Below, piece after piece: positions 4,036-44,265 of a stretch of 64,000 nt of DNA. The stretch's first letter is position 1. Each line of letters starts with the position of its first letter. This stretch comes from Branchiostoma lanceolatum. Taxonomy: Eukaryota > Chordata > Leptocardii > Amphioxiformes > Branchiostomatidae. A program made the position numbers and the translations under genes. The stretch covers positions 8,561,501 through 8,625,500 of the forward strand of contig NC_089726.1 of assembly GCF_035083965.1 (NCBI RefSeq), in the 5' to 3' direction. Below the pieces are notes generated by a model. That model was not told the origin of the DNA. It searched no databases and saw only the letters and a program-made list of their open reading frames with translations.

Positions 4036-4102
4036 GTTTCATTTAACTCAGTGCAATGCTGGAATTTACTTTATTTATTTCTTCATTTTGGGTACTGTCA
4101 AG

Positions 4103-4402
4103 CTAGACTGACTCCCAAGGGAGTCCAAATACATAAAGTACTCCCCGCACCGAAGGTGCATAAGGCGGCGCCCATCTCCGTTTCTGCAGCCCTGGGCCAC
4201 ACAACTTTGTGCAAGTCACTACAGCTAGTCCACTGGTAGTGGAGTGTGTAACTTCCATACGCTTTCTCAAATGCTGAGTGCTAAGCAGAGAAAGCATGTA
4301 TGCACCATTTTTTTAGTCTTTGGTATGACCCGGCCGGGGTTTGAACTCACGACCTACCGCATGCAAGGCGAACACTCTACCCACTAGGCCATTGCACCTG
4401 TC
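4103..4402 (-). mobile_element. tRNA-derived SINE-like element
   Basis: Read on the minus strand, the element starts near 4402 with GGTGCAATGGCCTAGTGGG. This is a recognisable RNA polymerase III A box, followed by a B box (GAGTTCAAACC, about 4355-4345) and a tRNA-Ala-like anticodon region with TGC in the loop position. The stem pairs imperfectly and there is no free tRNA end; a roughly 200-bp non-tRNA body follows, so this is a SINE and not a tRNA gene. The body contains GACTTGCAC and GTGTGGCCC, vaguely like the conserved core of some ancient SINE classes; that similarity is weak. It lies in the 3' untranslated part of the oxidoreductase gene, same strand. Confidence 0.7.
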
Positions 4403-4621
4403 CATGTATATACATCACACAAATTGAGAAAATAAGTTTAATTCCTACTCATTCCTTTGAAGATTATTAAGTGCACAACAGAATAATTGATTTGAACTAT
4501 CACTGCAGATCATGTCCTGTTTGGCCATAAGAAACTAGTTTGTAAAAATTTACACTTATGGCTCACTTCAGACTCTAATTATACAGACATGACGTTGCTG
4601 TTTCTCTGACATGTCTGACTT

Positions 4622-7600: not shown

Positions 7601-8835
7601 AAGTTATGTGTAAGTATGGAAAGTTTCATACCTTCTCATTGACCAGGCACTCTTCTGCATAACTGCCACTGGGCGTGGGCATTCCTACCACTCTGTCTCC
7701 CTTAGTTAAAGTTAAAAACATATATAAAGAACATTTTCTTATGCAGAAAGACATCAGCATTCAGCAATGATAAGCATTTCTAAGCACTGTAAGGAAAACT
7801 ATACTGGGAGTTTCCTTGTACTTGGAGACATAACTTGCACAATGCCTCTTAAAATCCTAATGAAACAAGAAACCTTCACAAGAACATGTGAACGCTTTAG
7901 AAGATGCATGGGAACTTTCCAAGTTAACAAAATTCTGTAATTTGTATAAGCTGGTATGTGATTAATCACACACTTAGTCATACCTCCTTAAAAGCTGTCA
8001 CACCCTCTCCAACTGCCATGACATCTCCAGCCATTTCAAACCCTGGAAGCAAAAACATACAATGTGTATCATTGCATCCAGGTCTGAACAATTGTAGGTA
8101 ATTGAAGTACATGTAATACATCTTGACTGATGACATGATGAAAAAACTATGTGTTCACTGCTGTAAAAATTATACATACAGCCGATCACTGTTAAGCGAA
8201 AAAAGTTGACAACTAGCATTTGTTAAGTATCCAGAGAGCATACAAGGTGAAATGAGCATTTCAAATATGTAAAAGTTTATAGAAAATAAGATGATTCTTG
8301 TACTGATTTACCTGGTACAAAGGGCAGTTCAGGTCTCTCCTGGTATGCACCAGCCACCATCAAGATGTCTGCAAAGTTGATGCCAGCACTGTGGACTGCA
8401 ACTTTCACCTGTAACATTATAATACAATACAATACAAGGAAAGGCTTTCCCAATTGTACAACTACAACTATAAGTTATACTAGAGTATAAGTGGGAAATA
8501 TTGAAGGACGCAAAATGATAAAAGCTGAAAGTCATACCATGCCTTTTGGAAGTTTTCCCACAGGTGGAAGGTCCTGTACTTCCATTGGAGACTTGAGTTT
8601 GTGGCAGACAGCTGCCTTGTACCCCCTCTGCTGTAAGGCGAATGGTTTCACCCATCTTTGGTCTCTGTACTGCTGCTTGCAACTTTGCAAGGACCTGGAA
8701 GGCCAAAGGAAAACATAGAATAACTTGCAATTTCAGATCGATAAAAGGTTTATTTAGCGGTTGTTCATAAAGTAAGACGAGCAGTAGCTGTGGCAACTGC
8801 TGGAGGGTCTTATACTTAAGCACCAGTACTCACAT
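4622..8835 (-). CDS. Quinone oxidoreductase, zeta-crystallin type (MDR superfamily)
   Basis: This is a predicted NADPH-dependent quinone/enone reductase closest to quinone oxidoreductase-like protein 2. Exons on the minus strand: 8835-8834, 8694-8538, 8408-8312, 8042-7984, 7700-7632, 7242-7133, 6792-6711, 6384-6203, 5730-5605, 5261-5156 and 4690-4622 (1059 nt, 352 residues, matching the family). Visible motifs are the GroES-like substrate domain ([10 protein letters not shown] near residue 65), the Rossmann-fold loop [10 protein letters not shown] at about 172-181, and the family run GGRILV-like/[13 protein letters not shown] in exon 9. No zinc ligands are seen, as expected for this branch. 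The ATG is split by the first intron (AT at 8835-8834, G at 8694); residues 1-28 are basic and could be a mitochondrial targeting peptide. Start choice is the least certain part. A minus-strand AATAAA lies at 4079-4070. Confidence 0.9.
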
Positions 8836-9059
8836 TGTTGGCAGGTGTAGATATTAGATTCAGGTGGGAGGGGGGCGTGGTACCAGTAACCCTTACCATG
8901 AAACCAAGAGTCAAGTCAAACCCCTTTTCCAAGCAGAGCAGCCGCTTAAACTGATACAAACTATGTGTACAAATATCTTGGACACGGGGTCCTCATGTTT
9001 GGATAATAAATCATGCACAAACCTCAGAACACACACTTGTGACCGTGCAGCCGAAAAAC
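8836..9059. promoter_or_regulatory. Oxidoreductase-side half of a split bidirectional promoter
   Basis: This short gap lies between the proposed oxidoreductase start (minus strand) and the target duplication of the 21-kb foldback element. The reading frame through it has no family match. Together with 30111-30390 it would have formed a gap of about 0.5 kb between two divergent genes before the element inserted. No individual binding site is claimed. Confidence 0.4.
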
Positions 9060-9067
9060 TTCTTTGC
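9060..9067. repeat. Left target-site duplication of the foldback element
   Basis: The 8-bp direct repeat TTCTTTGC lies immediately outside the left terminal inverted repeat. An identical copy is at 30103-30110, immediately outside the right terminus. A perfect 8-bp duplication at both outer edges is strong evidence that the whole 21 kb between them moved as one unit. Confidence 0.88.
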
Positions 9068-9178
9068 GGTTACGGGAGCATAGAACTTGTACCATTTATG
9101 CAAATAATATCCTAATACATATGCAAATATTTATCTTCCTAATTGTAATGATAGTATATATTAACCGTCAACAACCTT
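9068..9178 (+). repeat. Left terminal inverted repeat of the foldback element
   Basis: Starts GGTTACGGGAGCATAG and is AT-rich afterwards. It pairs with the reverse complement of 29990-30102 with a few small gaps. It contains two exact ATGCAAAT octamers at 9098-9105 and 9121-9128, 23 bp apart. Confidence 0.85.
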
Positions 9179-12100
9179 TTGAATCATGAAGAAACCATGA
9201 AGAAACCTTGAGATTCATAGAGAAACCTTGAAATTCATGGAGAAACCTTGAGATTCGTGGACAAACCTTGAGATTCGTGGAGAAACCTTGAGAATCATGG
9301 AAAAACCTTGAGATTCATGGAGAAACCTTGAGATTCATAAAGAAACCTTGCGAAACCTTGAGATTCATGGAGAAACCTTGAGAAACCTTGAGATTCATGG
9401 AGAAACCTTGAGAAACCTTGAGATTCATGGAGAAACCTTGAGATTCATGGAGAAACCTTGAGATTCATGGAGAAACCTTGAGATTCATGGAGAAACCTTG
9501 AGAAACCTTGAGATTCATGGAGAAACCTTGAGATTCATGGAGAAACCTTGAGATTCATGGAGAAACCTTGAGATTCATGGAGAAACCTTGAGATTCATGG
9601 AGAAACCTTGAGATTCATGGAGAAACCCTGAGATTCATGGAGAAACCTTGAGATTCATGGAGAAACCTTGAGATTCATGGAGAAACCTTGAGAAACCTTG
9701 AGATTCATGGAGAAACCTTGAGATTCATGGAGAAATCTTGATATTCATGGAGAAACCTTGAGAAACTTGAGATTCATGGAGAAACCTTGAGATTCATGGA
9801 GAAACCTTGAAAACCTTGAGATTCATGGAGAAACCTTGAGAAACCTTAAGATTCATGGAGAAACCTTGAGAAACCTAGAGATTCATGGAGAAACCTTGAG
9901 ATTCGTGAAGAAACCTTGAGATTCATAAAGAAACCTTGAGAAACCTTGAGATTCATGGAGAAACCTTGAGAAACCTTGAGATTCATGGAGAAACCTTGAA
10001 ATTCATAGAGAAACCTTGAGATTCATAAAGAAACCTTGAGATTCATGGAGAAACCTTGAGATTCATGGAGAAACCTTGAGATTCATGGAGAAACCTTAAG
10101 ATTCATGGAGAAACCTTGAGATTCATGGAGAAACCTTGAGATTCATGGAGAAACCTTGAGATTCATGGAGAAACCTTGCGATTCATGGAGAAACCTTGAG
10201 ATTCATGGAGAAACCTTGAGAAAACTTGATATTCATGGAGAAACCTTGAGAAACCTTGAGATTCATGGAGAAACCTTGAGATTCATGGAGAAACCTTGAG
10301 AAACCTTGAGATTCATGGAGAAACCTTGAGATTCATGGAGAAACCTTGAGAAACCTTGAGATTCATGGAGAAACCTTGAGATTCATGGAGAAACCTTGAG
10401 ATTCATGGAGAAACCTTGAGATTCATGGAGAAACCCTGAGATTCATGGAGAAACCTTAAGATTCATGGAGAAACATTGAGATTCGTGAAGAAACCTTGAG
10501 ATTCATAAAGAAACCTTGAGAAACCTTGAGATTCATGGAGAAACCTTGAGAAACCTTGAGATTCATGGAGAAACCTTGAAATTCATAGAGAAACCTTGAG
10601 ATTCATAAAGAAACCTTGAGATTCATGGAGAAACCTTGAGATTCATGGAGAAACCTTGAGATTCATGGAGAAACCTTGAGATTCATGGAGAAACCTTGAG
10701 ATTCATGGAGAAACCTTGAGATTCATGGAGAAACCTTGCGATTCATGGAGAAACCTTGAGATTCATGGAGAAACCTTGAGAAAACTTGATATTCATGGAG
10801 AAACCTTGAGAAACCTTGAGATTCATGGAGAAACCTTGAGATTCATGGAGAAACCTTGAGAAACCTTGAGATTCATGGAGAAACCTTGAGATTCATGGAG
10901 AAACCTTGAGAAACCTTGAGATTCATGGAGAAACCTTGAGATTCATGGAGAAACCTTGAGATTCGTGGAGAGACCTTGAGATTCATGGAGAAACCCTGAG
11001 ATTCATGGAGAAACCTTAAGATTCATGGAGAAACATTGAGATTCGTGAAGAAACCTTGAGATTCATAAAGAAACCTTGAGAAACCTTGAGATTCATGGAG
11101 AAACCTTGAGAAACCTTGAGATTCATGGAGAAACCTTGAAATTCATAGAGAAACCTTGAGATTCATAAAGAAACCTTGAGATTCATGGAGAAACCTTGAG
11201 ATTAATGGAGAAACCTTGAGATTCATGGAGAAACCTTGAGATTCATGGAGAAACCTTGAGATTCATGGAGAAACCTTGAGATTTATGGAGAAACCTTGAG
11301 ATTCATGGAGAAACCTTGCGATTCATGGAGAAACCTTGAGATTCATGGAGAAACCTTGAGAAAACTTGATATTCACGGAGAAACCTTGAGAAACCTTGAG
11401 ATTCATGGAGAAACCTTGAGATTCATGGAGAAACCTTGAGAAACCTTGAGATTCATGGAGAAACCTTGAGATTCATGGAGAAACCTTGAGAAACCTTGAG
11501 ATTCATGGAGAAACCTTGAGATTCATGGAGAAACCTTGAGATTCATGGAGAAACCTTGAGATTCATGGAGATACCTTGAGACTCATGGAGAAACCTTGAG
11601 ATTCATTGAGAAACCCTGAGATTCATGGAGAAACCTTGAGACTCATGGAGAAACCTTGAGATTCATGGAGAAACCTTGAGAAACCTTGAGATTCATGGAG
11701 AAACCTTGAGAAACCTTGAGATTCATGGAGAAACCTTGAGATTCATGGAGAAACCTTGAGATTCATGGAGAAACCTTGAGAAACTTGAGATTCATGGAGA
11801 AACCTTGAGATTCATGGAGAAACCTTGAGATTCATAAAGAAACCTTGAGAAACTTGAGATTCATGGAGAAACCTTGAGATTCATGGAGAAACCTTGAGAA
11901 ACCTTGATATTCGTGGAGAAACCTTGAGATTCAAGGAGAAACCTTGAGATTCATGGAGAAACCTTGAGATTCATGGAGAAACCTTGAGAATCTTGGAGAT
12001 TCATGGAGAAACCTTGATATTCGTGCAGAAACCTGGAGAAAACTTGAGATTAATAGAGAAACCTTGAGAAACCTTGAGAATCATGGAGAAACCTTGAGAA

Positions 12101-15100
12101 ACCTTGAGATTCATGGAGTAACCTTGAGATTCATGGAGAAACCTTGAGAAACCTTGAGATTCATGGAGAAACCTTGAGATTCATGGAGAAACTTCGAGAT
12201 TCATGGAGAAACCTTGAGATTCATGGAGAAACCTCGAGATTCATGGAGAAACCTTGAGATTCATGGAGAAACCTTGAGATTCATGGAGAAACCTTGAGAT
12301 TCATGGAGAAACCTTGAGAAACTTTGAGATTCATGGAGAAACCTTGAGATTCAAGGAGAAACCTTGAGATTCATGGAGAAACCTTGAGATTCATGGAGAA
12401 ACCTTGAGAATCATGGAGATTCATGGAGAAATCTTGATATTCGTGGAGAAACCTGGAGAAAACTTGAGATTAATAGAGAAACCTTGAGAAATCTTGAGAA
12501 TCATGGAGAAACCTTGAGAAACCTTGAGATTCATGGAGAAACCTTGAGATTCATGGAGAAACCTTGAGAAACCTTGAGATTCATGGAGAGACCTTGAGAA
12601 ACCTTGAGATTCATGGAGAAACCTTAAGATTCATGGGGAAACCTCGAGATTCATGGAGAAACCTTGAGATTCATGGAGAAACCTTGAGATTCATGGAGAA
12701 ACCTTGAGAAACCTTGAGATTGATGGAGAAACCTTGAGATTCATGGAGAAACCTTGAGATTCGTGGAGAAACCTTGAGAATCATGGAGATTCATGGAGAA
12801 ACCTTGAGATTCATTGAGAAACCTTGAGAAACCTTGAGATTCATGGAGAAACCTTGAGATTCATGGAGAAACCTTGAGATTCATGGAGAAAACTTGAGAT
12901 TCATGGAGAAACCTTGAGAATCATGGAGATTCATGGAGAAACCTTGAGATTCATGGAGAAACCTTGATAATCATGGAGATTCATGGAGAAACCTTGAGAT
13001 TCATTGAGAAACCTTAAGAAACCTTGACATTCACCGAGAAACCTTCAGATTCATGGAGAAACCTTGAGATTCATGGAGATATCTTAAGAAACCTTGAGAA
13101 ATCTTGAGATTCATGGAGAAACCTTGAGAAACCTTGAGATTCGTGGAGAAACCTTGAGAATCATGGAGATTCATGGAGAAACCTTGAGATTCATTGAGAA
13201 ACCTTGAGAAACCTTGAGATTCATGGAGAAACCTTGAGATTCATGGAGAAACCTTGAGATTCATGGAGAAAACTTGAGATTCATGGAGAAACCTTGAGAA
13301 TCATGGAGATTCATGGAGAAACCTTGAGATTCATGGAGAAACCTTGATAATCATGGAGATTCATGGAGAAACCTTGAGATTCATTGAGAAACCTTAAGAA
13401 ACCTTGACATTCACCGAGAAACCTTCAGATTCATGGAGAAACCTTGAGATTCATGGAGATATCTTAAGAAACCTTGAGAAATCTTGAGATTCATGGAGAT
13501 TCATGGAGAAACCTTGAGATTCATGGAGAAACCTTGAGATTCATGGAGAAACCTTGAGAAACCTTGAGAGTCATGGAGAAACCTAGAGATTCATGAAGAA
13601 ATCTTGAGATTCATGGAGAAAACTTGAGATTCATGGAGAAACCTTGAGATTCATTCAGAAACCTTGAGATTCATTCAGAAACCTTGAGATTCATTCAGAA
13701 ACCTTGAGATTCATGGAGAAACCTTGAGATTCATGGAAAAAACTTGAGATTCATGGAGAAACCTTGAGATTCATGGAGAAACCTTGAGATTCATGGTGAA
13801 ACCTTGAGAAACCTTGAGATTCATGGAGAAACCTTGAGAAACCTTGAGATTCATGAAGAAACCTTGAGATTCATGGAGAAAACTTGAGATTCATGGAGAA
13901 ACCTTGAGAATCATGGAGATTCATAGAGAAACCTTGACATTCGTGGAGAAACCTTCAGAAGCCTTGAGATTCATCGAGAAACCTTCAGATTGATGGAGAA
14001 ACCTTGAGATTCATGGAGATACCTTAAGAAACCTTGAGAAACCTTGAGATTACTGGAGAAACCTTGAGAAACCTTAATATTCATGGAGAAACCTTGAGAT
14101 TCATGGAGAAACCTTGAGAAACCTTGAGATTCATGGAGAAACCTTGAGAAACCTTGAGATCCATGGAGAAACCTTGAGATTCATGGAGAAACCTTGAGAT
14201 TCATGGAGAAACCTTGAGAAACTTGAGATTCATGGAGAAACCTTGAGAAACCTTGAGATTCATAAAGAAACCTTGAGATTCATAAAGAATCCTTGAGAAA
14301 CCTTGAGATTCATGGAGAAACCTTGAGAAACCTAGAGATTCATGGAGAAACCTTGAGAAACCTTGAGATTCGTGAAGAAACCTTGAGATTCATAAAGAAA
14401 CCTTGAGATTCATAAAGAATCCTTGAGAAACCTTGAGATTCATGGAGAAACCTTGAGAAACCTAGAGATTCATGGAGAAACCTTGAGAAACCTTGAGATT
14501 CGTGAAGAAACCTTGAGAAACCTTGAGATTCATGGAGAAACCTTGAGAAACCATGAGATTCATGGAGAAACCTTGAGATTCATGGCGAAACCTTGAGATT
14601 CATGGCGAAACCTTGAGATTCATGGAGAAACCTTGAGATTCATGGAAGAACCTTGAGATTCATGGAGAAACCTTGAGATTCATTGAGAAACTTTGAGATT
14701 CATGGAGAAACCTTGAGATTTATGGAGAAACCTTGAGATTCATGGAGAAACCTTGAGATTCATGGAGAAACCTTGAGAAACCTTGAGATTCATGGAGAAA
14801 CCTTGAGATTCATGGAGAAACCTTGAGATTCATGGAGAAACCTTGAGATTCATGGAGAAACCTTGAGATTAATGGAGAAACCTTGAGATTCATGGAGAAA
14901 CCTTGAGATTCATGGAGAAACCTTGAGATTCATAGAGAAACCTTGAGAAACCTTGAGATTCATGGAGAAACCTTGAGATTCATAACGAAACCTTGAGATT
15001 CATGGAGAAATCTTGAGAATCATGGAGATTTATGGAGAAACCTTGATATTCGTGGAGAAACCTTGAGAAACCTTGAGATTCATGGAGAAACCTTGAGATT

Positions 15101-15410
15101 CATGGGGAAACCTCGAGATTCATGGAGAAACCTTGAGATTCATGGAGAAACCTTGAGAACCATAGAGAATCATTGAGAATCAAAGAGAAACCTTAAGATT
15201 AATGGAGAAACTTTTAGTTGACATTCGTGGAGAAACTTTGTAATTTGTGGAGAAACCTTGGCAATCATGGAGAAACCTTGAGATTTATTGAAAAACCTTG
15301 ATAATCATGGAGAAACCATGACATTCATGGAGATTCATTCCGAAGCATGGTGAAAATGCTTAAGATTAATGAAGAATTCGTTAGAGTCTATTGAGAAAGC
15401 CGTAGATTCG
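9179..15410 (+). repeat. Left satellite arm: 20-bp minisatellite, forward orientation
   Basis: About 6.2 kb of tandem units with consensus AGAAACCTTGAGATTCATGG. The unit is really two decamers, AGAAACCTTG and AGATTCATGG, and extra copies of the first decamer occur alone, so most of the array is a string of two ten-base words and keeps a ten-base register for kilobases. A higher-order repeat of about 560 bp is visible (markers such as AAACATTGAGATTCGTGAAG at 10471 and 11031, with a related copy near 9890). A 380-bp duplication links 13035 and 13415. The array decays near its inner edge (15150-15410), where units become unrecognisable. No gene lies inside. Confidence 0.97.
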
Positions 15411-15653
15411 TTAACCCTTAAGCTGCCAGGTTTTTTAGCCAAGTAAAAATCAAAAATGTTTGACCCCTGACCTCCCTCACGAAACCCGCGAAACACCCGG
15501 CGGCGTTAACTCCCCTAACTTCCCGGCTTCGCGCGCTACACGCACGCAAAGCTGTTTTGTTCTGGGGAATACCCTATCCCGGTTATAACCGGGTCCAGTA
15601 CACAAGGTATATTTCTGTATCCCTAATTAAGTCGGGACTGGCAGCTTAATTAA
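15411..15653. mobile_element. Nested MITE with TTAA target duplication
   Basis: A 243-bp insert flanked by TTAA (15411-15414 and 15650-15653). Its ends are inverted: CTTAAGCTGCCAG at the left and CTGGCAGCTTAA at the right. TTAA duplication and a CCC start on the left side fit a piggyBac-like or Kolobok-like non-autonomous element. The right end lacks the matching GGG. It sits at the inner edge of the left satellite arm, with short satellite remnants directly after it. Confidence 0.65.
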
Positions 15654-15802
15654 GATTCATGGAGAAACATGGAGATTAATGGAGAGACATGGAGATCAGT
15701 TTGGGTGGTAGCGCGTGTGCGGCGAGTGTTACCATCTATCCCTAATGAATATGACACCTCGGCTTGGATGAGAATTTATATCACCCCTACACTTCGGGGG
15801 TC

Positions 15803-16322
15803 TTAAAGGTGCCCTAAGCGATTTCAGCGGGTAAAACTTGAAATATTCTGGGGAAAACAATTCTGTTTGGTGAGGTTGAAATTTACATTTACTTCCCTAT
15901 ATTAGCACATCTGCATCATTATTTAATACTTTGGGCGTTTAAAAATGGCACAGAAGCAAGCCACAAAAGGAGCATTTTATTTATTGGGTCCCCCAAAAAA
16001 TCAGCCCAGAATCCAGCTGTAACCTTTTTCTGTTGACAATTTTCGGTAACTTCCAGCCGCATGGCGTCACAATGCCCAAGCACATTGAGCCATGACCATG
16101 TGATTATTACTTCGGAAGCGTTCGGGACTTATCGGTCAGAATCGTGTATGTTCGGAAGTTCGGACATCACATTTGCTCCATGATGGTCGATATGCGATAG
16201 GATAGTGGTCGATATGCGATAGGATAGTGTTATCTAAACTTACTATGGATAGAAATCAGAAAAAAAAATTGATTTTGAATATATGACTTTCAGCGCCCTA
16301 ATATTGCTTAGGTTGCCTTTAA
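15803..16322. mobile_element. Second nested MITE with TTAA target duplication
   Basis: TTAA at 15803-15806 and 16319-16322 brackets a roughly 512-bp insert. The ends are imperfect inverted repeats: AGGTGCCCTAAGCGATTTCAG on the left against AGGCAACCTAAGCAATATTAG when the right end is read inward. No reading frame is seen. This is another short non-autonomous element in the core of the foldback element. Confidence 0.6.
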
Positions 16323-17257
16323 TGTATGTAACCTATTTTGACAATTTTCTTACCGATCTTGCCCACACTTATTTGACTATTGCCCAATTTCTGCTTATCG
16401 CTGTGTAGCTCTGATTTATAGTTGGCTGTAGGAACATCGTGACACACTATCCTGGGTCAGCATAGCCTTGTTGGCGATGTCAGGATTGACTTTGAAAATT
16501 GAATACCTTTGCGCAATTCCTTTATTCTAAAGCTTTTCAGGTATGACTGTGGCCTTACAAAACTAACAAAGTAAAGTAAGAGGGTAAATGTGCTGAGGTA
16601 GACATGTTTTGTGTAATTTTATCATGCGATAGAAATGATGACATATGGATTTTGGCTTATTTCCTGACAATAATGGAGTCCCGTCCACCCTGTGTCAGGT
16701 CTTTAGTATCAGCCCTTGCGCCCTCGGTGAGACTGGAAATTCGTCGTATGGTAGCATATACAGATGACAAGTAAAAGGACAAGTGTTTGTTTTTTCTGTA
16801 AGCGTCAATTTCCTTGTCGTCTTTTTTTTGAGATCGACACGTCCAAGTACAGTCAAACCTGCCCAAAGCCACCACCGGGGGACCGAGCAAAACGGCCACG
16901 ATGGACAGGTGGTCACCATATGCATGCAGATGATTCCACTCACAGCATGTTTCCAGGTCGAGGTGTTCAAATACAGTGTACTACATGGATGGATGTTGTT
17001 GTTTTTTTTTTTCTTCATTTTAGACAGCATGACCCCCGCCAGGTTCAATTCTCGTTGACAGAAATATCCTACAAAAATTACGTTTGCCGTTATCGCTGTA
17101 GTTTGTGTATAACGTTACACCATGTACAAATTTTCGTCATAATTTGTACTACAGAAGCCAACATTTCCGCGAAATCCGACCGCAAAACACACTTGAAAAT
17201 GAGGCGGTCGCCATAGGAAGGGATAAGTATAATCTGTCTTTTTCTAAATGATGCAAC
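16323..17257. other. Non-satellite core of the foldback element
   Basis: Unique-looking sequence between the MITEs and the right arm. A stretch at about 16845-17215 begins TACAGTCAAACCTGCCC and includes CCACCACCGGGGGACCGAG and GACAGGTGGTCACC, a style common at ends of dispersed repeats in marine invertebrates; I could not assign it. Short overlapping frames on both strands (16657-17216) share no domain with known transposases. This is where any transposase relic of the parent element would be expected, and I see none. Confidence 0.4.
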
Positions 17258-17830
17258 ATGAATCTCAAGGTTTCTCCTTGAATCTCAAGGTTTTTCCTTA
17301 AATCTCATCGATCAAGGTTTTTCCATGAATTTCAAGGTTTCTCCAAGAATCTCAACGTATCTCCATGAATCTCAAGGTCACGGTTCTCAATATTTCGCCA
17401 TGAATCTCAATGTTTCTCCATGAATCTGACAGATTCTCCATGAATCTCAAGGTTCTCCTTTCAAGGTTTCTCCATGATTCTCAAGGTTTCTAAAGGATTC
17501 TCAAGGTTTGTCAATCATTGTCAATGTTTCTCCATGATTCTCAAGGTTTCTCCTTGAATCTCAAGGTTTCTCCACGAATCTCAAGGTTTCTCTTTGATTC
17601 TCAAGGTTTAGCGTTGAATCTCAATGTCTCTCTATGGTTCTCAAGGTTTCTCCATGAATCTCAAGTTTTCTCCGGGAATCTCAAGGTTTCTCCAGAAATC
17701 TCAAGATTTCTCCAGAAATCTCAAAAATTCTTCATGAATTTCAAGGTATCTCCATGAATCTCAAGGTTTCTTCATGATTCTCCATGAATCTCAAGGTTTC
17801 TCCGTGAATGGCAAGGTTTCCCCATGAACC
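17258..17830 (-). repeat. Inner segment of the right satellite arm (degenerate)
   Basis: Diverged units of the same 20-bp minisatellite in reverse orientation (CCATGAATCTCAAGGTTTCT). Most units carry one or more changes, as at the inner edge of the left arm. The plus-strand open frame 17518-17757 exists only because the unit repeats out of step with the codon and is not a gene. Confidence 0.9.
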
Positions 17831-17833
17831 ACA

Positions 17834-19468
17834 CGCTCGTTCTCATTTGAATGTACAAATTGCTGTCGTCAGCCTTTACGACTTGATATGAGCCAAATTA
17901 CGGGCACCATCGATGCTTTCTTCACTTTCCCACAACAAGTATCATGTTTCACGAAAAATGCACCTCAAAATTACTTATAGGTTTTGACTTAGAAAAAATT
18001 ATGGCAATGGGTGGCCCGAAGAGTCATAAAAAACGGCTGTCGCCTGCGGAGACATGCAAAATTTAAAAAGCAGCAGAGAATGTAACAATTCAGTTCAGAG
18101 AATGACCGGTTAACTGGTGAATCCAGCTACTAAGGCCCTCCGACAAATCACGTCAGATCGCTCCTGTCACTGTTCTTGTACGCTGTGCAAGGCGGTTTAT
18201 GCCTGTCGCCCAAAACGGTAAGTTCCGTTACCGTTTAAAGTAAGACGTTCCTGACATTTAGATATGCCACATATAAGGTGCCAACCTGTTGTTTTTATGA
18301 CGACTTAAAGCTTTTGTGGCTTTTAAAAGGAACAAATAAGAAGTGTTTGCTATCAGTTGTGAACCACCTCCTCGAACAAATGACAGTGCAGTGATGAACG
18401 TAATCTCCGTTACCATTGTTCGATGCTCTCTGTTGTTAACAAGACCTGGTGTAGGAACGCTGCCGATTTTCTAAATGCCCGTACAAACATCCTTTTAATA
18501 ATAAAAGATGGAACGCAAAAACGGAAATCCCTTTGAAGGAAAAGCCGAAGTTTTACTGTAGTAAGCTCCGTTACCGGTAACGGAGATTACACCTGTTGCG
18601 GAAAATACATAATCTGGCGCAGAACTTTTTGTAGTTGTGCACCAGAATGCAAAAGCGTTTGAACTAGAATAGAAAAGTATAGATTCAGGTGAGAGAAACC
18701 CCCTATTCCAATTTTCTACTCTTTCTTCCAAATTTTGTTTCCAAAGTTGAATTCTTTTTAAACCTCAAGACAATAAGTAATCTATAGCCTTTGATATGTT
18801 TGAAGAAGAAAAGAAATCAGAAGTCGATCAATTACAACTTGGCGACTTACGTCTGGTGAACATGTCTTTTGGCGACAGTATGTAATCTCCGTTACCGTTT
18901 TTCCGCGATCCCCCATCCGTTCCAAATGCTTTACTGCTCCTAAGCAGTATTAGTTCGCAACATTGAATATGTTATAGATGTTGTAAGACTTAAATTATTC
19001 GGATCAACGGAGGATGGAACGTTTTGCAAGAACAATCAGATTCCGTCTCTGGTAAATATCTCAAACAAGTCGAAATGCAAAAACAAATCCAGACAATATT
19101 AATCCTGAATGAAACAGTTATAAAGCAATCGTCAGCACGGCACTAAACTCGACAGACGCTTTGCCAGAGATACTGACTCTTCAACTAAAGGTTTTGAAGG
19201 CGATGTCACGACATGAAAGCTCCAAAATTGAAGTATCTTATTACTGATGTTCTGCATTTTTTCAGCAAAAATATGGATAAACTCCAAGGTCATCTTATCA
19301 AATCATAGAAATTTTCGGCATCTTCCCATGACAAATTAGCTGTAATATTTTGGGGATCATAAAAAGAGATGTTCAGCTAAAAAATGAGGTAGGTTTGCTT
19401 GGAAAATGAGCTGATCAATGTTTCGACCCTAAAAATCGCTATTTTGCACATTTCATTGAGAACGAGCG
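17834..19468. mobile_element. 1.6-kb transposon inserted in the right satellite arm
   Basis: The insert interrupts the satellite and has inverted ends: CGCTCGTTCTCA at 17834-17845 and TGAGAACGAGCG at 19457-19468, with similarity extending about 18 bp further inward. Inside are four sites built on CTCCGTTACC or its variant, at about 18218, 18400, 18561 and 18882. Two are palindromic: AACGGTAA...TTACCGTT at 18215-18235, and GTAAGCTCCGTTACC mirrored over 18561-18590. Repeated internal motifs of this sort can be transposase-binding sites. No transposase frame is present and no target duplication is clear. Confidence 0.65.
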
Positions 19469-22400
19469 CTCAATGTATCTCCATAAATCTCAAGGTATCT
19501 CCATTAACTTCAAGGTTTTGTCAATGAAGCTCAAGGTTTCTCAAGGTTTCTCCACAAATCTCAAGTTTTCTCCGTGATTAGCAAGGTTTCTCCATGAACC
19601 TCAATGTATCTCCATGAATCTCAAGGCATCTCCATGAATCTCAAAGTTTTGCCAATGAAGCTCAAGGTTTCTAAAGGTTTCTCCATGAATCTCAAGGTTT
19701 TTCCATGAATCTTAATGGTTCTCAATGTTTCTCCATGATTCTCCATGAACGTAAGGGTTTCTCCATGAATATCAAGGTTTCTCCATGAATCTCAAGGTTT
19801 CTCAAGGTTCCTCCACGATTCTCCGTGTTTCTCCACGGTTCTCAAGATTTCTCCACGATTCTCAAGGTTTCTCAATGAATCTCAAGGTTTCTCAAGGTTT
19901 CTCCATGAATCTCAAGTTTTCTCCATGAATCTCAAGGTTTCTCCATGAATCTCAAGGTTTCTCCAGGGTTCTCCATGAATCTCAAGGTTTCTCCATGAGT
20001 CTCCAGGTTTCTCCATGAATCTCAAGTTTTCTCAAGGATTCTCTATGAATCTCAAGGATTCTCCATGAATCTCAAGGTTTCTCCATTAATCTCAAGGTTT
20101 CTCCATGAATCTCAAGGTTTCTCCATGAATCTCAAGGTTTCTCCATAAATCTCAAGGTTTCTCAAGGTTTGTCCACGATTCTTAAGGTTTCTCCATGAAT
20201 CTCAAGGTTTCTCCACGAATCTCAAGGTTTCTCCATGAATCTCAAGGTTTCTCCATGAATGTCAAGGTTTCTCCATGAATCTCAAGGTTTCTCCATGAAT
20301 CTCAAGGTTTCTCAAGGTTTCTCCACGAATCTCAAGGTTTCTCCATGAATCTCAAGGTTTCTCTGTGAATCTCAAGGTTTCTCCATGAATCTCAAGGTTT
20401 CTCAAAGATTCTCCATGAATCTCAAGGTTTCTCAAAGATTCTCCACGATTCTCAAGCATTCTCCATGAATCTCAAGGTTTCTCCATGAATCTCAAGGTTT
20501 CTCCATGAATCTCAAGATTTCTCCATAAATCTCAAGTTTTCTCAAGGATTCTCCATGAATCTCGAGTTTTCTCCACGAATCTCAAGGTTTCTCCATGAAT
20601 CTCAGGGTTTCTCAAGGTTTCTCCATGAATCTCAAGGTTTCTCAAGGTTTCTCCATGAATCTCAAGGTTTCTCAAGGATTCTCCATTAATCTCAAGGTTT
20701 CTCCATGAATCTCAAGGTTTCTCCATGAATCTCAAGGATTCTCCATGAATCTTAAGGTTTCTCAAGGTTTCTCCATGAATCTAAAGGTTTCTCCACGAAT
20801 CTTAAGGTTTCTTTATGAATCTCAAGGTTTCTCCATGAATCTCAAGGTTTCTCAAGGTTTCTCCATGAATCTCAAGGTTTCTCCATGAATCTCAAGGTTT
20901 CTCCATGAATCTCAAGGTTTCTCCATGAATCTCAAGGTTTCTCAAGTTTTCTCCACGATTATCAACGTTTCTCCATGAATCTCAAGGTTTCTCCATGAAT
21001 CTCAAGCTTTCTCCATGAATATCAAGGTTTCTCAAAGATTCTCCATGAATAACAAGGTTTCTCAAGGTTTCTCCACGATTCTCAAGGTTTCTCCATGAAT
21101 CTCAAGGTTTCTCCATGAATCTCATGGTTTCTCCATGAATCTCAAGGTTTCTCCATGAATGTTAAGGTTTCTCCATGAATCTCAAGGTTTCTCCATGAAT
21201 ATCAAGATTTCTCAAGTTTTCTCCATGAATCTCAAGGTTTCTCCATGAACCTCAAGGTTTCTCCATGAATCTCAAGTTTTCTCAAGGTTTCTCCATGAAT
21301 CTCAAGGTTTCTCCACGAATCTCAAGGCTTCTCCATGAATCTCAAGATTTCTCCATGAATCTCAAGGTTTCCCAAGGATTCTCTATGAATCTCAAGGATT
21401 CTCCATGAATCTCAAGGTTTCTCCATGAATCTCATGGTTTCTCTATGAATCTCAAGGTTTCTCCATGAATCTCAAGGCTTCTCAAGGTTGCTCCATGAAT
21501 CTCAAGGTTTCTCAAGGTTTCTCCATGAATCTCAAGGTTTCTCCATGAATCTCAAGGTTTCTCCATGAATCTCAAGGTTTCTCTGTGAATCTCAAGGTTT
21601 CTCCATGAATCTCAAGGTTTCTCAAAGATTCTCCATGAATCTCAAGGTTTCTCAAAGATTCTCCACGATTCTCAAGCATTCTCCATGAATCTCAAGGTTT
21701 CTCCATGAATCTCAAGGTTTCTCCATGAATCTCAAGATTTCTCCATAAATCTCAAGTTTTCTCAAGGATTCTCCATGAATCTCGAGTTTTCTCCACGAAT
21801 CTCAAGGTTTCTCCATGAATCTCAAGGTTTCTCAAGGTTTCTCCATGAATCTCAAGGTTTCTCAAGGTTTCTCCATGAATCTCAAGGTTTCTCAAGGATT
21901 CTCCATGAATCTCAAGGTTTCTCCATGAATCTCAAGGTTTCTCCATGAATCTCAAGGATTCTCCATGAATCTTAAGGTTTCTCAAGGTTTCTCCATGAAT
22001 CTAAAGGTTTCTCCACGAATCTCAAGGTTTCTTTATGAATCTCAAGGTTTCTCCATGAATCTCAAGGTTTCTCAAGGTTTCTCCATGAATCTCAAGGTTT
22101 CTCCATGAATCTCAAGGTTTCTCCATGAATCTCAAGGTTTCTCCATGAATCTCAAGGTTTCTCAAGTTTTCTCCACGATTATCAACGTTTCTCCATGAAT
22201 CTCAAGGTTTCTCCATGAGTCTCCAGGTTTCTCCATGAATCTCAAGTTTTCTCAAGGATTCTCTATGAATCTCAAGGATTCTCCATGAATCTCAAGGTTT
22301 CTCCATTAATCTCAAGGTTTCTCCATGAATCTCAAGGTTTCTCCATGAATCTCAAGGTTTCTCCATAAATCTCAAGGTTTCTCAAGGTTTGTCCACGATT

Positions 22401-25400
22401 CTTAAGGTTTCTCCATGAATCTCAAGGTTTCTCCACGAATCTCAAGGTTTCTCCATGAATCTCAAGGTTTCTCCATGAATGTCAAGGTTTCTCCATGAAT
22501 CTCAAGGTTTCTCCATGAATCTCAAGGTTTCTCAAGGTTTCTCCACGAATCTCAAGGTTTCTCCATGAATCTCAAGGTTTCTCTGTGAATCTCAAGGTTT
22601 CTCCATGAATCTCAAGGTTTCTCAAAGATTCTCCATGAATCTCAAGGTTTCTCAAAGATTCTCCACGATTCTCAAGCATTCTCCATGAATCTCAAGGTTT
22701 CTCCATGAATCTCAAGGTTTCTCCATGAATCTCAAGATTTCTCCATAAATCTCAAGTTTTCTCAAGGATTCTCCATGAATCTCGAGTTTTCTCCACGAAT
22801 CTCAAGGTTTCTCCATGAATCTCAGGGTTTCTCAAGGTTTCTCCATGAATCTCAAGGTTTCTCAAGGTTTCTCCATGAATCTCAAGGTTTCTCAAGGATT
22901 CTCCATTAATCTCAAGGTTTCTCCATGAATCTCAAGGTTTCTCCATGAATCTCAAGGATTCTCCATGAATCTTAAGGTTTCTCAAGGTTTCTCCATGAAT
23001 CTAAAGGTTTCTCCACGAATCTTAAGGTTTCTTTATGAATCTCAAGGTTTCTCCATGAATCTCAAGGTTTCTCAAGGTTTCTCCATGAATCTCAAGGTTT
23101 CTCCATGAATCTCAAGGTTTCTCCATGAATCTCAAGGTTTCTCCATGAATCTCAAGGTTTCTCAAGTTTTCTCCACGATTATCAACGTTTCTCCATGAAT
23201 CTCAAGGTTTCTCCATGAATCTCAAGCTTTCTCCATGAATATCAAGGTTTCTCAAAGATTCTCCATGAATAACAAGGTTTCTCAAGGTTTCTCCACGATT
23301 CTCAAGGTTTCTCCATGAATCTCAAGGTTTCTCCATGAATCTCATGGTTTCTCCATGAATCTCAAGGTTTCTCCATGAATGTTAAGGTTTCTCCATGAAT
23401 CTCAAGGTTTCTCCATGAATATCAAGATTTCTCAAGTTTTCTCCATGAATCTCAAGGTTTCTCCATGAACCTCAAGGTTTCTCCATGAATCTCAAGTTTT
23501 CTCAAGGTTTCTCCATGAATCTCAAGGTTTCTCCACGAATCTCAAGGCTTCTCCATGAATCTCAAGATTTCTCCATGAATCTCAAGGTTTCCCAAGGATT
23601 CTCTATGAATCTCAAGGATTCTCCATGAATCTCAAGGTTTCTCCATGAATCTCATGGTTTCTCTATGAATCTCAAGGTTTCTCCATGAATCTCAAGGCTT
23701 CTCAAGGTTGCTCCATGAATCTCAAGGTTTCTCAAGGTTTCTCCATGAATCTCAAGGTTTCTCCATGAATCTCAAGGTTTCTCCATGAATCTCAAGGTTT
23801 CTCTGTGAATCTCAAGGTTTCTCCATGAATCTCAAGGTTTCTCAAAGATTCTCCATGAATCTCAAGGTTTCTCAAAGATTCTCCACGATTCTCAAGCATT
23901 CTCCATGAATCTCAAGGTTTCTCCATGAATCTCAAGGTTTCTCCATGAATCTCAAGATTTCTCCATAAATCTCAAGTTTTCTCAAGGATTCTCCATGAAT
24001 CTCGAGTTTTCTCCACGAATCTCAAGGTTTCTCCATGAATCTCAAGGTTTCTCAAGGTTTCTCCATGAATCTCAAGGTTTCTCAAGGTTTCTCCATGAAT
24101 CTCAAGGTTTCTCAAGGATTCTCCATGAATCTCAAGGTTTCTCCATGAATCTCAAGGTTTCTCCATGAATCTCAAGGATTCTCCATGAATCTTAAGGTTT
24201 CTCAAGGTTTCTCCATGAATCTAAAGGTTTCTCCACGAATCTCAAGGTTTCTTTATGAATCTCAAGGTTTCTCCATGAATCTCAAGGTTTCTCAAGGTTT
24301 CTCCATGAATCTCAAGGTTTCTCCATGAATCTCAAGGTTTCTCCATGAATCTCAAGGTTTCTCCATGAATCTCAAGGTTTCTCAAGTTTTCTCCACGATT
24401 ATCAACGTTTCTCCATGAATCTCAAGGTTTCTCCATGAATCTCAAGGTTTCTCCATGAATATCAAGGTTTCTCAAAGATTCTCCATGAATAACAAGGTTT
24501 CTCAAGGTTTCTCCACGATTCTCAAGGTTTCTCCATGAATCTCAAGGTTTCTCCATGAAGCTCAAGGTTTCTCCATGAATCTCAAGTTTTCTCAAGGTTT
24601 CTCCATGAATCTCAAGGTTTCTCCACGAATCTCAAGGTTTCTCAATGAATCTCAAGATTTCTCCATGAATCTCAAGTTTTCCCAAGGATTCTCTATGAAT
24701 CTCAAGGATTCTCCATGAATCTCAAGGTTTCTCCATGAATCTCAAGGTTTCTCTATGAATCTCAAGGTTTCTCCATGAATCTCAAGGTTTCTCAAGGTTG
24801 CTCCATGAATCTCAAGGTTTCTCAAGGTTTCTCCATGAATCTCAAGGTTTCTCAAAGATTCTCCACGATTCTCAAGGTTTCTCCATGAGTCTCAAGGTTT
24901 CTCCATGAATCTCAAGGTTTCTCAAGGATTCTTTATTAATCTCAAGGTTTCTCCACGATTCTCAAGGTTTCTCCATGAATCTCAAGGTTTCTCCATGAAT
25001 CTCAAGGATTCTCCATGAATCTCAAGGTTTCTCAAGGATTCTCTATGAATCTCAAGGATTCTCCATGAATTTCAAGGTTTCTTCATGAATCTCAAGGTTT
25101 CTCCATGAATCTCATGGTTTCTCAATGATTCTCCATGAATCTCAAGGTTTCTCCATGAATCTCAAGGTTTCTCCGTGAATCTCAAGGTTTCTCAAGGATT
25201 CTCCATGAATCTCAAGGATTCTCCATGAATTTCAAGGTTTCTTCATGAATCTCAAGGTTTCTCCATGAATCTCATGGTTTCTCAATGATTCTCCATGAAT
25301 CTCAAGGTTTTCCATGAATCTCAAGGTTTCTCCGTGAATCTCAAGGTTTCTCAAGGATTCTCCATGAATCTCAAGGATTCTCCATGAATCTCAAGGTTTC

Positions 25401-28400
25401 TCCATGAATCTCAAGGTTTCTCCATGAATCTCAAGGTTTCTCCATGAATCTCAAGATTTCTCCATGATTCTCCACGATTCTCAACGTTTCTCCATGAATC
25501 TCAAGGTTTCTCCATGAATCTCAAGGTTTCTCCATGAATCTCATGGTTTCTCCATGAATCTCAAGGTTTCTCCATGAATGTTAAGGTTTCTCCATGAATC
25601 TCAAGGTTTCTCCATGAATATCAAGATTTCTCAAGTTTTCTCCATGAATCTCAAGGTTTCTCCATGAACCTCAAGGTTTCTCCATGAATCTCAAGTTTTC
25701 TCAAGGTTTCTCCATGAATCTCAAGGTTTCTCCACGAATCTCAAGGCTTCTCCATGAATCTCAAGATTTCTCCATGAATCTCAAGTTTTCCCAAGGATTC
25801 TCTATGAATCTCAAGGATTCTCCATGAATCTCAAGGTTTCTCCATGAATCTCATGGTTTCTCTATGAATCTCAAGGTTTCTCCATGAATCTCAAGGCTTC
25901 TCAAGGTTGCTCCATGAATCTCAAGGTTTCTCAAGGTTTCTCCATGAATCTCAAGGTTTCTCCATGAATCTCAAGGTTTCTCCATGAATCTCAAGGTTTC
26001 TCTGTGAATCTCAAGGTTTCTCCATGAATCTCAAGGTTTCTCAAAGATTCTCCATGAATCTCAAGGTTTCTCAAAGATTCTCCACGATTCTCAAGCATTC
26101 TCCATGAATCTCAAGGTTTCTCCATGAATCTCAAGGTTTCTCCATGAATCTCAAGATTTCTCCATAAATCTCAAGTTTTCTCAAGGATTCTCCATGAATC
26201 TCGAGTTTTCTCCACGAATCTCAAGGTTTCTCCATGAATCTCAAGGTTTCTCAAGGTTTCTCCATGAATCTCAAGGTTTCTCAAGGTTTCTCCATGAATC
26301 TCAAGGTTTCTCAAGGATTCTCCATGAATCTCAAGGTTTCTCCATGAATCTCAAGGTTTCTCCATGAATCTCAAGGATTCTCCATGAATCTTAAGGTTTC
26401 TCAAGGTTTCTCCATGAATCTAAAGGTTTCTCCACGAATCTCAAGGTTTCTTTATGAATCTCAAGGTTTCTCCATGAATCTCAAGGTTTCTCAAGGTTTC
26501 TCCATGAATCTCAAGGTTTCTCCATGAATCTCAAGGTTTCTCCATGAATCTCAAGGTTTCTCCATGAATCTCAAGGTTTCTCAAGTTTTCTCCACGATTA
26601 TCAACGTTTCTCCATGAATCTCAAGGTTTCTCCATGAATCTCAAGGTTTCTCCATGAATATCAAGGTTTCTCAAAGATTCTCCATGAATAACAAGGTTTC
26701 TCAAGGTTTCTCCACGATTCTCAAGGTTTCTCCATGAATCTCAAGGTTTCTCCATGAAGCTCAAGGTTTCTCCATGAATCTCAAGTTTTCTCAAGGTTTC
26801 TCCATGAATCTCAAGGTTTCTCCACGAATCTCAAGGTTTCTCAATGAATCTCAAGATTTCTCCATGAATCTCAAGTTTTCCCAAGGATTCTCTATGAATC
26901 TCAAGGATTCTCCATGAATCTCAAGGTTTCTCCATGAATCTCAAGGTTTCTCTATGAATCTCAAGGTTTCTCCATGAATCTCAAGGTTTCTCAAGGTTGC
27001 TCCATGAATCTCAAGGTTTCTCAAGGTTTCTCCATGAATCTCAAGGTTTCTCAAAGATTCTCCACGATTCTCAAGGTTTCTCCATGAGTCTCAAGGTTTC
27101 TCCATGAATCTCAAGGTTTCTCAAGGATTCTTTATTAATCTCAAGGTTTCTCCACGATTCTCAAGGTTTCTCCATGAATCTCAAGGTTTCTCCATGAATC
27201 TCAAGGATTCTCCATGAATCTCAAGGATTCTCCATGAATCTCAAGGTTTCTCCATGAATCTCAAGGTTTCTCCATGAATCTCAAGGTTTCTCCATGAATC
27301 TCAAGATTTCTCCATGATTCTCCACGATTCTCAACGTTTCTCCATGAATCTCAAGGTTTCTCCATGAATCTCAAGGTTTCTCCATGAATCTCATGGTTTC
27401 TCCATGAATCTCAAGGTTTCTCCATGAATGTTAAGGTTTCTCCATGAATCTCAAGGTTTCTCCATGAATATCAAGATTTCTCAAGTTTTCTCCATGAATC
27501 TCAAGGTTTCTCCATGAACCTCAAGGTTTCTCCATGAATCTCAAGTTTTCTCAAGGTTTCTCCATGAATCTCAAGGTTTCTCCACGAATCTCAAGGCTTC
27601 TCCATGAATCTCAAGATTTCTCCATGAATCTCAAGTTTTCCCAAGGATTCTCTATGAATCTCAAGGATTCTCCATGAATCTCAAGGTTTCTCCATGAATC
27701 TCATGGTTTCTCTATGAATCTCAAGGTTTCTCAATGATTCTCCATGATTATCAAGGTTTTCCATGAATCTCAAGGTATCTCCATGAATCTCAAGGTTTCT
27801 CCATGAATCTCAAGGATTCTCCATGAATCTCAAGGTTTCTCACTGATTCTCTATGAATCTCAAGGATTCTCCATGAATCTCAAGGTTTCTCCATGAATCT
27901 CAAGGTTTCTCCATGAATCTCAAGATTTCTCCATGAATCTCAAGTTTTCTCAAGGATTCTCCATGAATCTCAAGTTTTCTCCACGAATCACAAAATTTCT
28001 CCATGAATCTCAAGGTTTCTCAAGGTTTCTCCATGAATCTCAAGGTTTCTCAAGGTTTTTCCGTGAATCTCAAGGTTTCTCAAGGATTCTCCATGAATCT
28101 CAAGGTTTCTCCATGAATCAAAAATTTTCTCCATGAATCTCAAGGATTCTCCATGAATCTTAAGGTTTCTCAAGGATTCTCCATGAATCTCAAGGTTTCT
28201 CCATGAATCTCAAGGTTTCTCCATGAATCTCAAGGATTCTCCATGAATCTTAAGGTTTCTCAAGGATTCTCCATGAATCTCAAGGTTTCTCCATGAATCT
28301 CAAGGTTTCTTCATGAATCTCAAGGTTTCTCCAAGAATCTCAAGGTTTCTCAAGCTTCTCCATGAATCTCAAGGTTCCTCAATGAATCTCAAGGTTTCTC

Positions 28401-29989
28401 CATGAATCTCAAGGTTTCTCAAGGATTCTCTACGAATCTCAAGGTTTCTCCATGAATATCAAGGTTTCTCCAGGTTTCTTCACGATTCTCAACGTTTCTC
28501 CATGAATCTCAACGTTTCTCCATGAATCTCAAGGTTTCTCCATGAATCTCAAGGTTTCTCAAAGCTTCTCCATGAATCTCAAGGTTTCTCCACGAATCTC
28601 AAGGTTTCTCCATGAATCTCAAGGTTTCTCAAGGTTTCTCCACGATTCTCAAGGTTTCTCCATGAATCTCAAGGTTTCTCCATGAATCTCAAGGTTTCGC
28701 CAAGAATTTCAAGGTTTCTCAAGGCCTCTCCATGAATCTCAAGGTTTCTCCATGAATCTCAAGGTTTCTTTATGAATCTCAAGTTTTCTCAAGGATTCTC
28801 CATGAATCTCAAGGTTTCTCCACGAATCGTAAGGTTTCTCCATGAATCTCAAGGTTTCTCCACGATTTTCAACGATTCTGAAGGTTTCTCCATGAATCTC
28901 AAGGTTTCTCCATGAATCTCAAGGTTTCTCCATGAATCTCAAGGTTTCTCAAAGATTCTCCATGAATCTCAAGGTTTCTCAAGGTTTGTCCACGATTCTC
29001 AAGGTTTCTCCATGAATCTCAAGGTTTCTCCATGAATCTCAAGGTTTCTCCATGAATCTCAAGGTTTCTCCATGAATCTCAAGGTTTCTCCATGAATCTC
29101 AAGGTTTCTCCATGAATCTCAAGGTTTCTCCATGAATCTCAAGGTTTCTCCATGAATCTCAAGGTTTCTCAAGGTTTTTCCATGGATCTCAAGGTTTCTC
29201 CATGAATCTGAAGGTTTCTCCATGAATCTCAAGTTTTCTCAAGGATTCTCCATGAATCTCAAGGTTTCTCCACGAATCTCAAGGTTTCTCCATGAATCTC
29301 AAGGTTTCTCAAGGTTTCTCCATGGATCTCAAGGTTTCTCCATGAATCTCAAGGTTTCTCCATAAATCTCAAGTTTTCTCAAGGATTCTCCATGAATCTC
29401 AAGGTTTCTCCATGAATCTCAAGGTTTCTCAAGGATTCTCCATGAATCTTAAGGTTTCTCCATGAATCTCAAGGTTTCTCCATGAATCTCAAGTTTTCTC
29501 AAGGATTCTCCATGAATCTCAAGGTTTCTCCACGAATCTCAAGGTTTCTCCATGAATCTCAAGGTTTCTCAAGGTTTCTCCACGATTCTCATGGTTTCTC
29601 CATGAATCTCAAGGTTTCTCCATGAATCTCAAGGTTTCTCCATGAATCTCAAGGTTTCTCAAGGTTTCTGCATGAATCTCAAGGTTTCTCAAGGTTTCTC
29701 CACGATTCTCAAGGTTTCTTCATGAATCTCAAGGTTTCTCCATGAATCTCAAGGTTTCTCCATGAATCTCAAGGTTTCTGCATGAATCTCAAGGTTTTTC
29801 AAGGATTCTCCATGAATCTCAAGTTTTCTCCATGAATCTAAAGGTTTCTCCATGAATCTCAAGGTTTTTCCATGAATCTCAAGGTTTCTTAAGGTTTCTC
29901 CATGAATCTCAAGGATTCTCCATGAATCTCAAGGATTCTCCATGAATCTCAAGGTTTCTCCATGGTTTTTCTATGTTTTCTCCATTAAG
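19469..29989 (-). repeat. Main right satellite arm with 2.2-kb higher-order repeats
   Basis: About 10.5 kb of the 20-bp minisatellite in reverse orientation relative to the left arm. Block 19981-22200 is repeated as 22201-24420 with no difference in the lines I compared, giving a 2,220-bp higher-order repeat. Partial further copies follow at offsets of about 2,199 (25481-27240) and 1,850 (27301-27720). Inside each block a 1,220-bp offset pairs 20341-20980 with 21561-22200. Single-base slips near 25304 and 27760 shift the ten-base register. Open frames here (for example 27933-28136) are repeat artefacts. Confidence 0.97.
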
Positions 29990-30102
29990 GTTTGTACACT
30001 ATTTGTTATATATTCTTTATATGTAATTAGAATAAATTATAATTTTGCATAAGTATTAAGAAATATTTGCATAAATGGTACAGATACTATGCTCCCGTAA
30101 CC
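29990..30102 (-). repeat. Right terminal inverted repeat of the foldback element
   Basis: Reverse complement begins GGTTACGGGAGCATAG and continues with TGTACCATTTATGCAAATA, matching the left terminus. One exact ATGCAAAT octamer is present on the minus strand at 30072-30065; the second octamer of the left end is altered here to ATGCAAAA. Confidence 0.85.
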
Positions 30103-30110
30103 TTCTTTGC
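30103..30110. repeat. Right target-site duplication of the foldback element
   Basis: TTCTTTGC, identical to 9060-9067, immediately after the right terminus. Confidence 0.88.
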
Positions 30111-44067: not shown

Positions 44068-44265
44068 AGAGTATTGGAGATTCTTTTTACACAACCGATA
44101 ATTCTCACCTGCTAACGTTTCGATGTCTGTCAGACACCTTCATCAGAGCTTCTGACTGGAGTACTGCCTCTCAGCTATAAGTAGCTCTGATGAAGGTGTC
44201 TGACAGACATCGAAACGTTAGCAGGCGAGAATTACCGGTTGTGTAAAAAGAATCTCCAATACTCT
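44068..44265. mobile_element. Near-perfect 83-bp-arm hairpin (foldback MITE)
   Basis: Left arm 44068-44150 and right arm 44183-44265 are reverse complements at 81 of 83 positions, around a 32-bp loop. Arms begin AGAGTATTGGAGATTC and end at the loop with CATCAGAGCT. It probably inserted into the SAM gene's 3' UTR and would form a long double-stranded RNA stem in the transcript. Confidence 0.9.

Follow-up and report, generated by a model that had tools for sequence, protein, structure and literature searches.

Opposed arms of a 20-bp satellite in a foldback-like structure of Branchiostoma lanceolatum

Introduction

When a satellite array lies between the ends of a transposon, did it arrive at its present length, or did it grow after a shorter element had landed? 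This question is raised by a foldback-like structure of about 21 kb in a 64,000-nucleotide stretch of the Branchiostoma lanceolatum genome (assembly GCF_035083965.1, contig NC_089726.1, positions 8,561,501 to 8,625,500; here called the window, in whose coordinates all positions are given). The structure extends over 9060-30110 including its target-site duplications and over 9068-30102 without them, and it is the single such locus in the window. Here a satellite array near genes is, within the window, wholly bounded by transposon-like ends, and it offers a comparison of two arms that probably go back to a common origin.

A preliminary description had proposed a giant foldback transposon. This is also the best reading of our results, because the structure has inverted ends, an exact 8-bp duplication, opposed arms and an outer junction variant that is common to both arms. 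Opposed tandem-repeat arms, inverted ends and a target duplication, the features by which foldback elements are structurally defined, are all present. From the sequence we conclude, with a probability of roughly 80%, that this is a non-autonomous foldback-type DNA transposon of the FB, TU and Tetris kind, whose arms have been growing independently of each other by local tandem duplication.

Results and discussion

Ends of the element

The terminal inverted repeats (TIRs) are located at 9068-9124 (plus strand) and 30046-30102 (minus strand). Their first 57 bases align with 50 identities, 6 mismatches and one internal gap, giving a score of 42 compared with 8.8 +/- 1.7 for shuffled sequences, and none of 1000 shuffles scored as high. 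Both begin with GGTTACGGGAGCATAG, found without mismatch at 9068-9083 (+) and 30087-30102 (-). Even when three mismatches are allowed these are the only two sites in the window, while shuffled sequences have 0.11 sites on average and reach two or more in 1 of 100 shuffles.

The preliminary description had given the inverted repeats a length of about 110 bp. This overstates them, since bases 58-112 taken alone show no significant similarity (198 of 1000 shuffles equal the observed score); about 57 bp are convincing, and the full 110 bp can be rejected as a TIR. What follows on each side is an AT-rich linker. The left linker (9125-9172, plus strand) has diverged from the right one (29993-30045, minus strand). 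Such divergence would fit a situation where the ends are under selection for transposition and the linker drifts.

Directly outside the ends, and exactly abutting them, is the octamer TTCTTTGC, at 9060-9067 and 30103-30110, both on the plus strand. The perfect 8-bp target duplication that had been claimed is therefore real. Searched in both orientations, the octamer has one further occurrence in the window, at 42244, which makes three in all, and the chance of matching octamers at both ends is about 1.5e-5 for eight given bases. When the insertion is removed and the flanks are joined, no second copy of the target site is found within the window, and four reading frames of 75-105 amino acids span the junction.

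Two arms of opposite polarity

The satellite unit is 20 bp long, CATGGAGAAACCTTGAGATT, and contains 10-bp half units (AGAAACCTTG). Tandem Repeats Finder (TRF) reports a period of 20 at 9196-15333, 17257-17828 and 19469-29964. To describe polarity we counted overlapping windows with at most four mismatches to the unit. There are 320 plus and no minus matches at 9068-15407, a single plus match and no minus match at 15408-17256, and only minus matches in the two right blocks: 22 at 17257-17828 and 530 at 19469-30102, together 552. On neither strand does the unit match at 1-9067, at 30111-64000 or in the element nested in the right arm. Two opposed arms of one 20-bp satellite, as first described, are therefore confirmed.

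By TRF and unit matching the left arm covers 9173-15407 on the plus strand (6235 bp), and TRF finds its final units at 15654-15697 (+), past a small insert. The right arm, on the minus strand, consists of an inner block of 572 bp at 17257-17828, delimited by TRF and identity windows, which is more degenerate and severed by the nested element, and an outer block of 10.5 kb at 19469-29992, with higher-order repeats of about 2.2 kb over approximately 19.7-27.7 kb. Of the arm lengths proposed earlier, the 6.2 kb on the left agree with ours, while the "about 12 kb" on the right correspond to 12.7 kb if the nested 1.6-kb element is counted and to 11.1 kb of satellite (11096 bp) if nested DNA is removed. 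Without overlap the arms can be tiled with 267 and 483 units, covering 86% and 87% of the left and right arrays. The spacing of the anchor GAAACCT, in order of frequency, is 20, 10, 30 and 40 bp on the left and 20, 30, 10 and 50 bp on the right.

The two arms have a variant in common at their outer junction, ACCATG[AG]AG ahead of a regular unit. In this form, as ACCATG[AG]AGAAACCTTGAGATTC, it is present a single time per arm, at distances of 127 and 137 bases from the two ends; of the shorter motif AAACCATG there are 3 copies on the left and 12 on the right. The junction motif was picked after the sequence had been inspected, so it is support and not a blind test. As both outer junctions carry the same variant, the TIR and the start of the array were probably inverted together as one unit.

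These observations bear on a different origin of the structure, in which a resident satellite array was rearranged by inversion and the ends and the duplication are coincidental, or stem from two small elements. The strong difference between the arms in length and higher-order structure would agree with this. However, the 43 kb of flanking DNA (9 kb on the left and 34 kb on the right) contain no satellite match, the ends are inverted copies of each other and lie exactly on matching octamers, and the outer edges of both arms carry a junction variant that is found nowhere else in them. We consider such an origin highly improbable.

The source of the monomer was also sought within the element. 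Compared with the TIRs and linkers the monomer scores no better than shuffled sequences (114 to 200 of 200 shuffles score as high), and compared with the central core its similarity is not above that of shuffles either (41 of 200 and 91 of 200). A derivation from TIR, linker or core can therefore be rejected. A stable single-strand fold of four monomers was likewise rejected (z -0.63).

Apparent separate growth of the two arms

Within the right arm there are long and nearly perfect tandem duplications. Positions 19969-22218 are repeated without any difference at 22189-24438 (2250 bp, lag 2220; 19969-24438 in all, minus strand), and 23300-25027 is repeated at 25499-27226 with one mismatch in 1728 bp (lag 2199; 23300-27226, minus strand), the lone difference being a private change at 25786. 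A self-comparison of the right arm at a shift of about 2.2 kb gives 92.4% identity over 7.9 kb. The longest exact repeat in the left arm is 374 bp, at a lag of 380. The arms are thus no mirror images of each other: repeats of about 2.2 kb exist only on the right, and the duplications on the left are shorter.

The same is seen when 1.1-kb blocks are compared with their best non-overlapping match, which gives 85.3-92.5% identity on the left (n=19) and 87.1-100% on the right (n=35), where 14 blocks match at 100%. The high values are confined to about 19.7-27.7 kb, and the last blocks near the right end are at 87-90%. Among exact repeats of at least 150 bp, the lag is a multiple of ten in all four distinct cases on the left and in 6 of 12 on the right; arithmetically, the other six right-arm lags are 2199 or sums containing 2199.

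If the arms had recently been homogenised with each other they should share variants. Considering only 20-base variants with two to five substitutions, there are 52 distinct ones on the left and 68 on the right, and seven are common to both arms, compared with 8.4 +/- 1.9 (of 69.7) expected from 300 column shuffles. Recent homogenisation between the arms can thus be rejected. Since exact repeats exist within the arms and there is no excess sharing between them, local tandem duplications within each arm seem to drive its evolution separately.

The near-identity of the right-arm copies has two possible meanings: either the arm has changed very recently, or it is misassembled. Assembly is difficult in such tandem arrays, and some of the length of the right arm, with its perfect 2.2-kb repeats, could come from array segments that were falsely duplicated. 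It is striking, from this angle, that 2250 bp are repeated without a difference in an array where 200-bp windows mostly have an identity of 0.93-0.98 to the consensus. On the other hand, there are two duplications with unequal lags, the second of them has a private change, and further duplications of several sizes are present in both arms. We find an artefact of this type rather unlikely, and the ends and the polarity are independent of how long the arms are.

Did the whole structure transpose?

The preliminary description had treated the 21 kb as a single transposition unit, i.e. the arms at their present length and the nested elements would have moved at once. In favour of this, one perfect 8-bp duplication encloses the entire structure, and the arm duplications are not dated relative to the insertion. 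Against it, a perfect copy of 2250 bp and another of 1728 bp with one mismatch mean that the right arm was changed very recently or is misassembled, and foldback structures of great length are difficult substrates for transposition. In view of these copies, offset by about 2.2 kb, and of the two nested elements, the present length of 21 kb is at least partly the result of local growth, or partly an assembly effect. A single unit of this size does not follow from the data, and its transposition in one step is unlikely. Given that each arm would have been lengthened since by local tandem duplication, the transposed element probably measured less than 21 kb.

The inner edges of the arrays are in general more degenerate than the outer parts. 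Identity to the consensus is 0.75-0.93 in the innermost 300 bp of the left arm. The inner right block has 0.83-0.95, and for the next 420 bp the range is 0.83-0.92. In windows of 200 bp the isolated inner right block has 0.86-0.89, compared with 0.93-0.98 over 19841-29641. At the outer edges the first 60 bp have 0.88 (left) and 0.92 (right), and the next 60 bp 0.95 and 0.97. For other DNA in the window the mean is 0.71 and the maximum 0.82. It may be that the nested element severed the inner right block from a homogenisation that continued outside, an order of events reconstructed from this one locus.

A number of points weigh against a foldback transposon with independently growing arms. One copy has been seen, while foldback families usually have several, and mobility is deduced from the ends alone. 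The linker between TIR and satellite differs between the two ends. Arm growth or the nested insertions could have preceded the insertion at this site, and an assembly duplication could account for some of the right arm. Finally, the contrast between inner and outer parts of the arrays is a tendency, as some interior 60-bp windows drop to 0.88. Exact patterns gave no match in viral_contigs (satellite and TIR) or genome_contigs (satellite); these collections are not of the source organism and have no bearing on mobility.

With a foldback transposon as the preferred reading, its history may be outlined as follows. In the ancestor, the TIR, the linker and the first satellite units would have formed one inverted unit, as the common junction variant suggests. 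A transposase from elsewhere would have recognised the ends of about 57 bp, starting with GG, and the insertion would have made the 8-bp duplication; this is what the anatomy points to. Later, each arm would have been lengthened and homogenised on its own as blocks of at most 2.2 kb were duplicated in tandem; the exact repeats show such duplication, and the number of variants common to both arms, no higher than by chance, shows its independence. These duplications may have been caused by unequal exchange or replication slippage, and only the right arm has built higher-order repeats of about 2.2 kb.

Core, nested elements and coding capacity

Between the arms lies a core of 1.56 kb (15698-17256) that has neither a long inverted repeat of its own nor a recognised coding region. 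It holds a perfect tandem copy of a 22-bp unit at 16184-16229.

The small insert at the inner edge of the left arm (15411-15653) lies in satellite DNA and resembles a miniature inverted-repeat transposable element (MITE), with TTAA at 15411-15414 and 15650-15653 and 12-bp inverted ends TTAAGCTGCCAG. The right arm is split by a transposon-like element of 1.6 kb at 17834-19468. Its 26-nt inverted ends, 85% complementary, begin with CGCTCGTTCTCA. It contains four motifs similar to GTAATCTCCGTTACC, and an almost perfect palindrome at 18561-18590 includes one of them. A target duplication could not be clearly recognised around this nested element.

At 15300-19500 there are 12 stop-to-stop frames of at least 60 amino acids. 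Ten of them were searched against Pfam, two at an E-value of 0.01 and eight at an E-value of 1, and none gave a match; no transposase was found in them. The two remaining frames fall in the MITE-like insert and in the satellite.

Comparison with known elements

TU elements of sea urchin make 8-bp duplications and have long inverted repeats with an outer domain of short tandem repeats, as in the element described here. Their unit is 15 bp and their arms are shorter; this comparison is one of descriptions. FB of Drosophila melanogaster has long inverted repeats built from short tandem units with nested periods of 10, 20 and 31 bp, which by description resembles the 20-bp units and 10-bp half units seen here. 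It differs in its 9-bp duplications and in arms that measure between a few hundred bases and a few kilobases.

The closest described case that we found is Tetris of Drosophila virilis, a non-autonomous foldback element from whose internal repeats satellite arrays have been amplified (PMC4079207). Tetris also has duplications of 8-10 bp, an outer flanking domain, tandem repeats in each TIR and a middle part without apparent coding capacity, and two of its alleles differ by one duplicated unit (PMC4079207). Its unit is about 220 bp and not 20 bp, and complete Tetris TIRs are at most 1,735 bp, compared with arms of 6.2 and 12.7 kb here (PMC4079207). Arrays derived from Tetris reach 66 copies, by arithmetic about 14.5 kb, so the array length seen here is not without parallel (PMC4079207). 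The Tetris repeat shares 37 bp with the outer domain (PMC4079207), while our monomer has no similarity to TIR, linker or core beyond that of shuffled sequences; a unit taken partly from the outer TIR domain is not seen here (114 to 200 of 200 shuffles, as above). The Tetris report lists sea urchin among the organisms that bear foldback elements (PMC4079207).

As to the superfamily, Merlin elements have TIRs of 24-462 bp with a conserved 5'-GG and duplications of 8 or 9 bp, and some members have internal tandem repeats and imperfect TIRs (PMC8101967). Here both ends start with 5'-GG (GGTTACGGGAGCATAG) and the duplication is 8 bp; judged by these terminal features, the element would fit the Merlin superfamily. 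The described Merlin elements encode DDE_Tnp_IS1595 (PMC8101967), which was not found in the ten scanned frames of at least 60 amino acids. The element may also belong to Mutator (MULE), with whose duplications of 8-10 bp the 8-bp one seen here is compatible; the scanned frames revealed no transposase of this kind either. Mutator was proposed for Tetris by its authors (PMC4079207).

The preliminary description saw in this locus a route by which satellites can be seeded at new places. As a route this is plausible; seeding, however, cannot be demonstrated from a single locus, and Tetris already provides a case of satellite amplification within a foldback element. Growth of satellite arrays from foldback repeats is thus already published. 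A 2025 review counts the expansion of short arrays inside transposons among the origins of satellites (PMC12628747), and Tetris stands with such cases in a table of a 2022 review (PMC9659126). No report of the present element was found among the matches listed for an open-access library; for fragments of the TIR and the monomer, the papers listed contain only an 11-base TIR fragment each and seem unrelated by their titles.

A more specific proposal is tentative: the element might belong to a Merlin-type foldback family whose 20-bp arms expand by themselves as satellites after insertion, with arms that have diverged and one that is building 2.2-kb higher-order repeats. We hold this to be possible, though doubtful. 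If true, it would provide a natural paired experiment on the origin of higher-order satellite structure. If other copies with varied arm lengths exist, they would allow a direct test of whether a short foldback element, once inserted, gives rise to growing satellite arrays and higher-order repeats.

Other features of the window

To the right of the element, an open frame at 30391-31023 (+) has matches to a RING-type and two B-box-type zinc fingers and is TRIM-like; its first likely ATG is about 280 bp from the insertion. At 49365-50123 (+) there is a Death effector domain, followed by what by eye appears to be a membrane segment. A weak TPR match, under the curated cut-off, lies at 56473-56856. 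A flanking exon has 13 distant matches in the protein database with 25-30% identity, several of them with TPR or probable NB-ARC domains (the latter from a Pfam accession), and none in PDB.

Three further repeats were observed. A near-perfect hairpin at 44068-44265, perhaps a MITE, has arms of 86 nt with 97% complementarity and 26 nt between them. A stretch of 723 bp at 36995-37717 has 32-nt inverted ends, 91% complementary, that begin with TAGAGTCAATTCC. To the left of the element, 3249-3485 holds 2.9 copies of an 83-bp tandem repeat.

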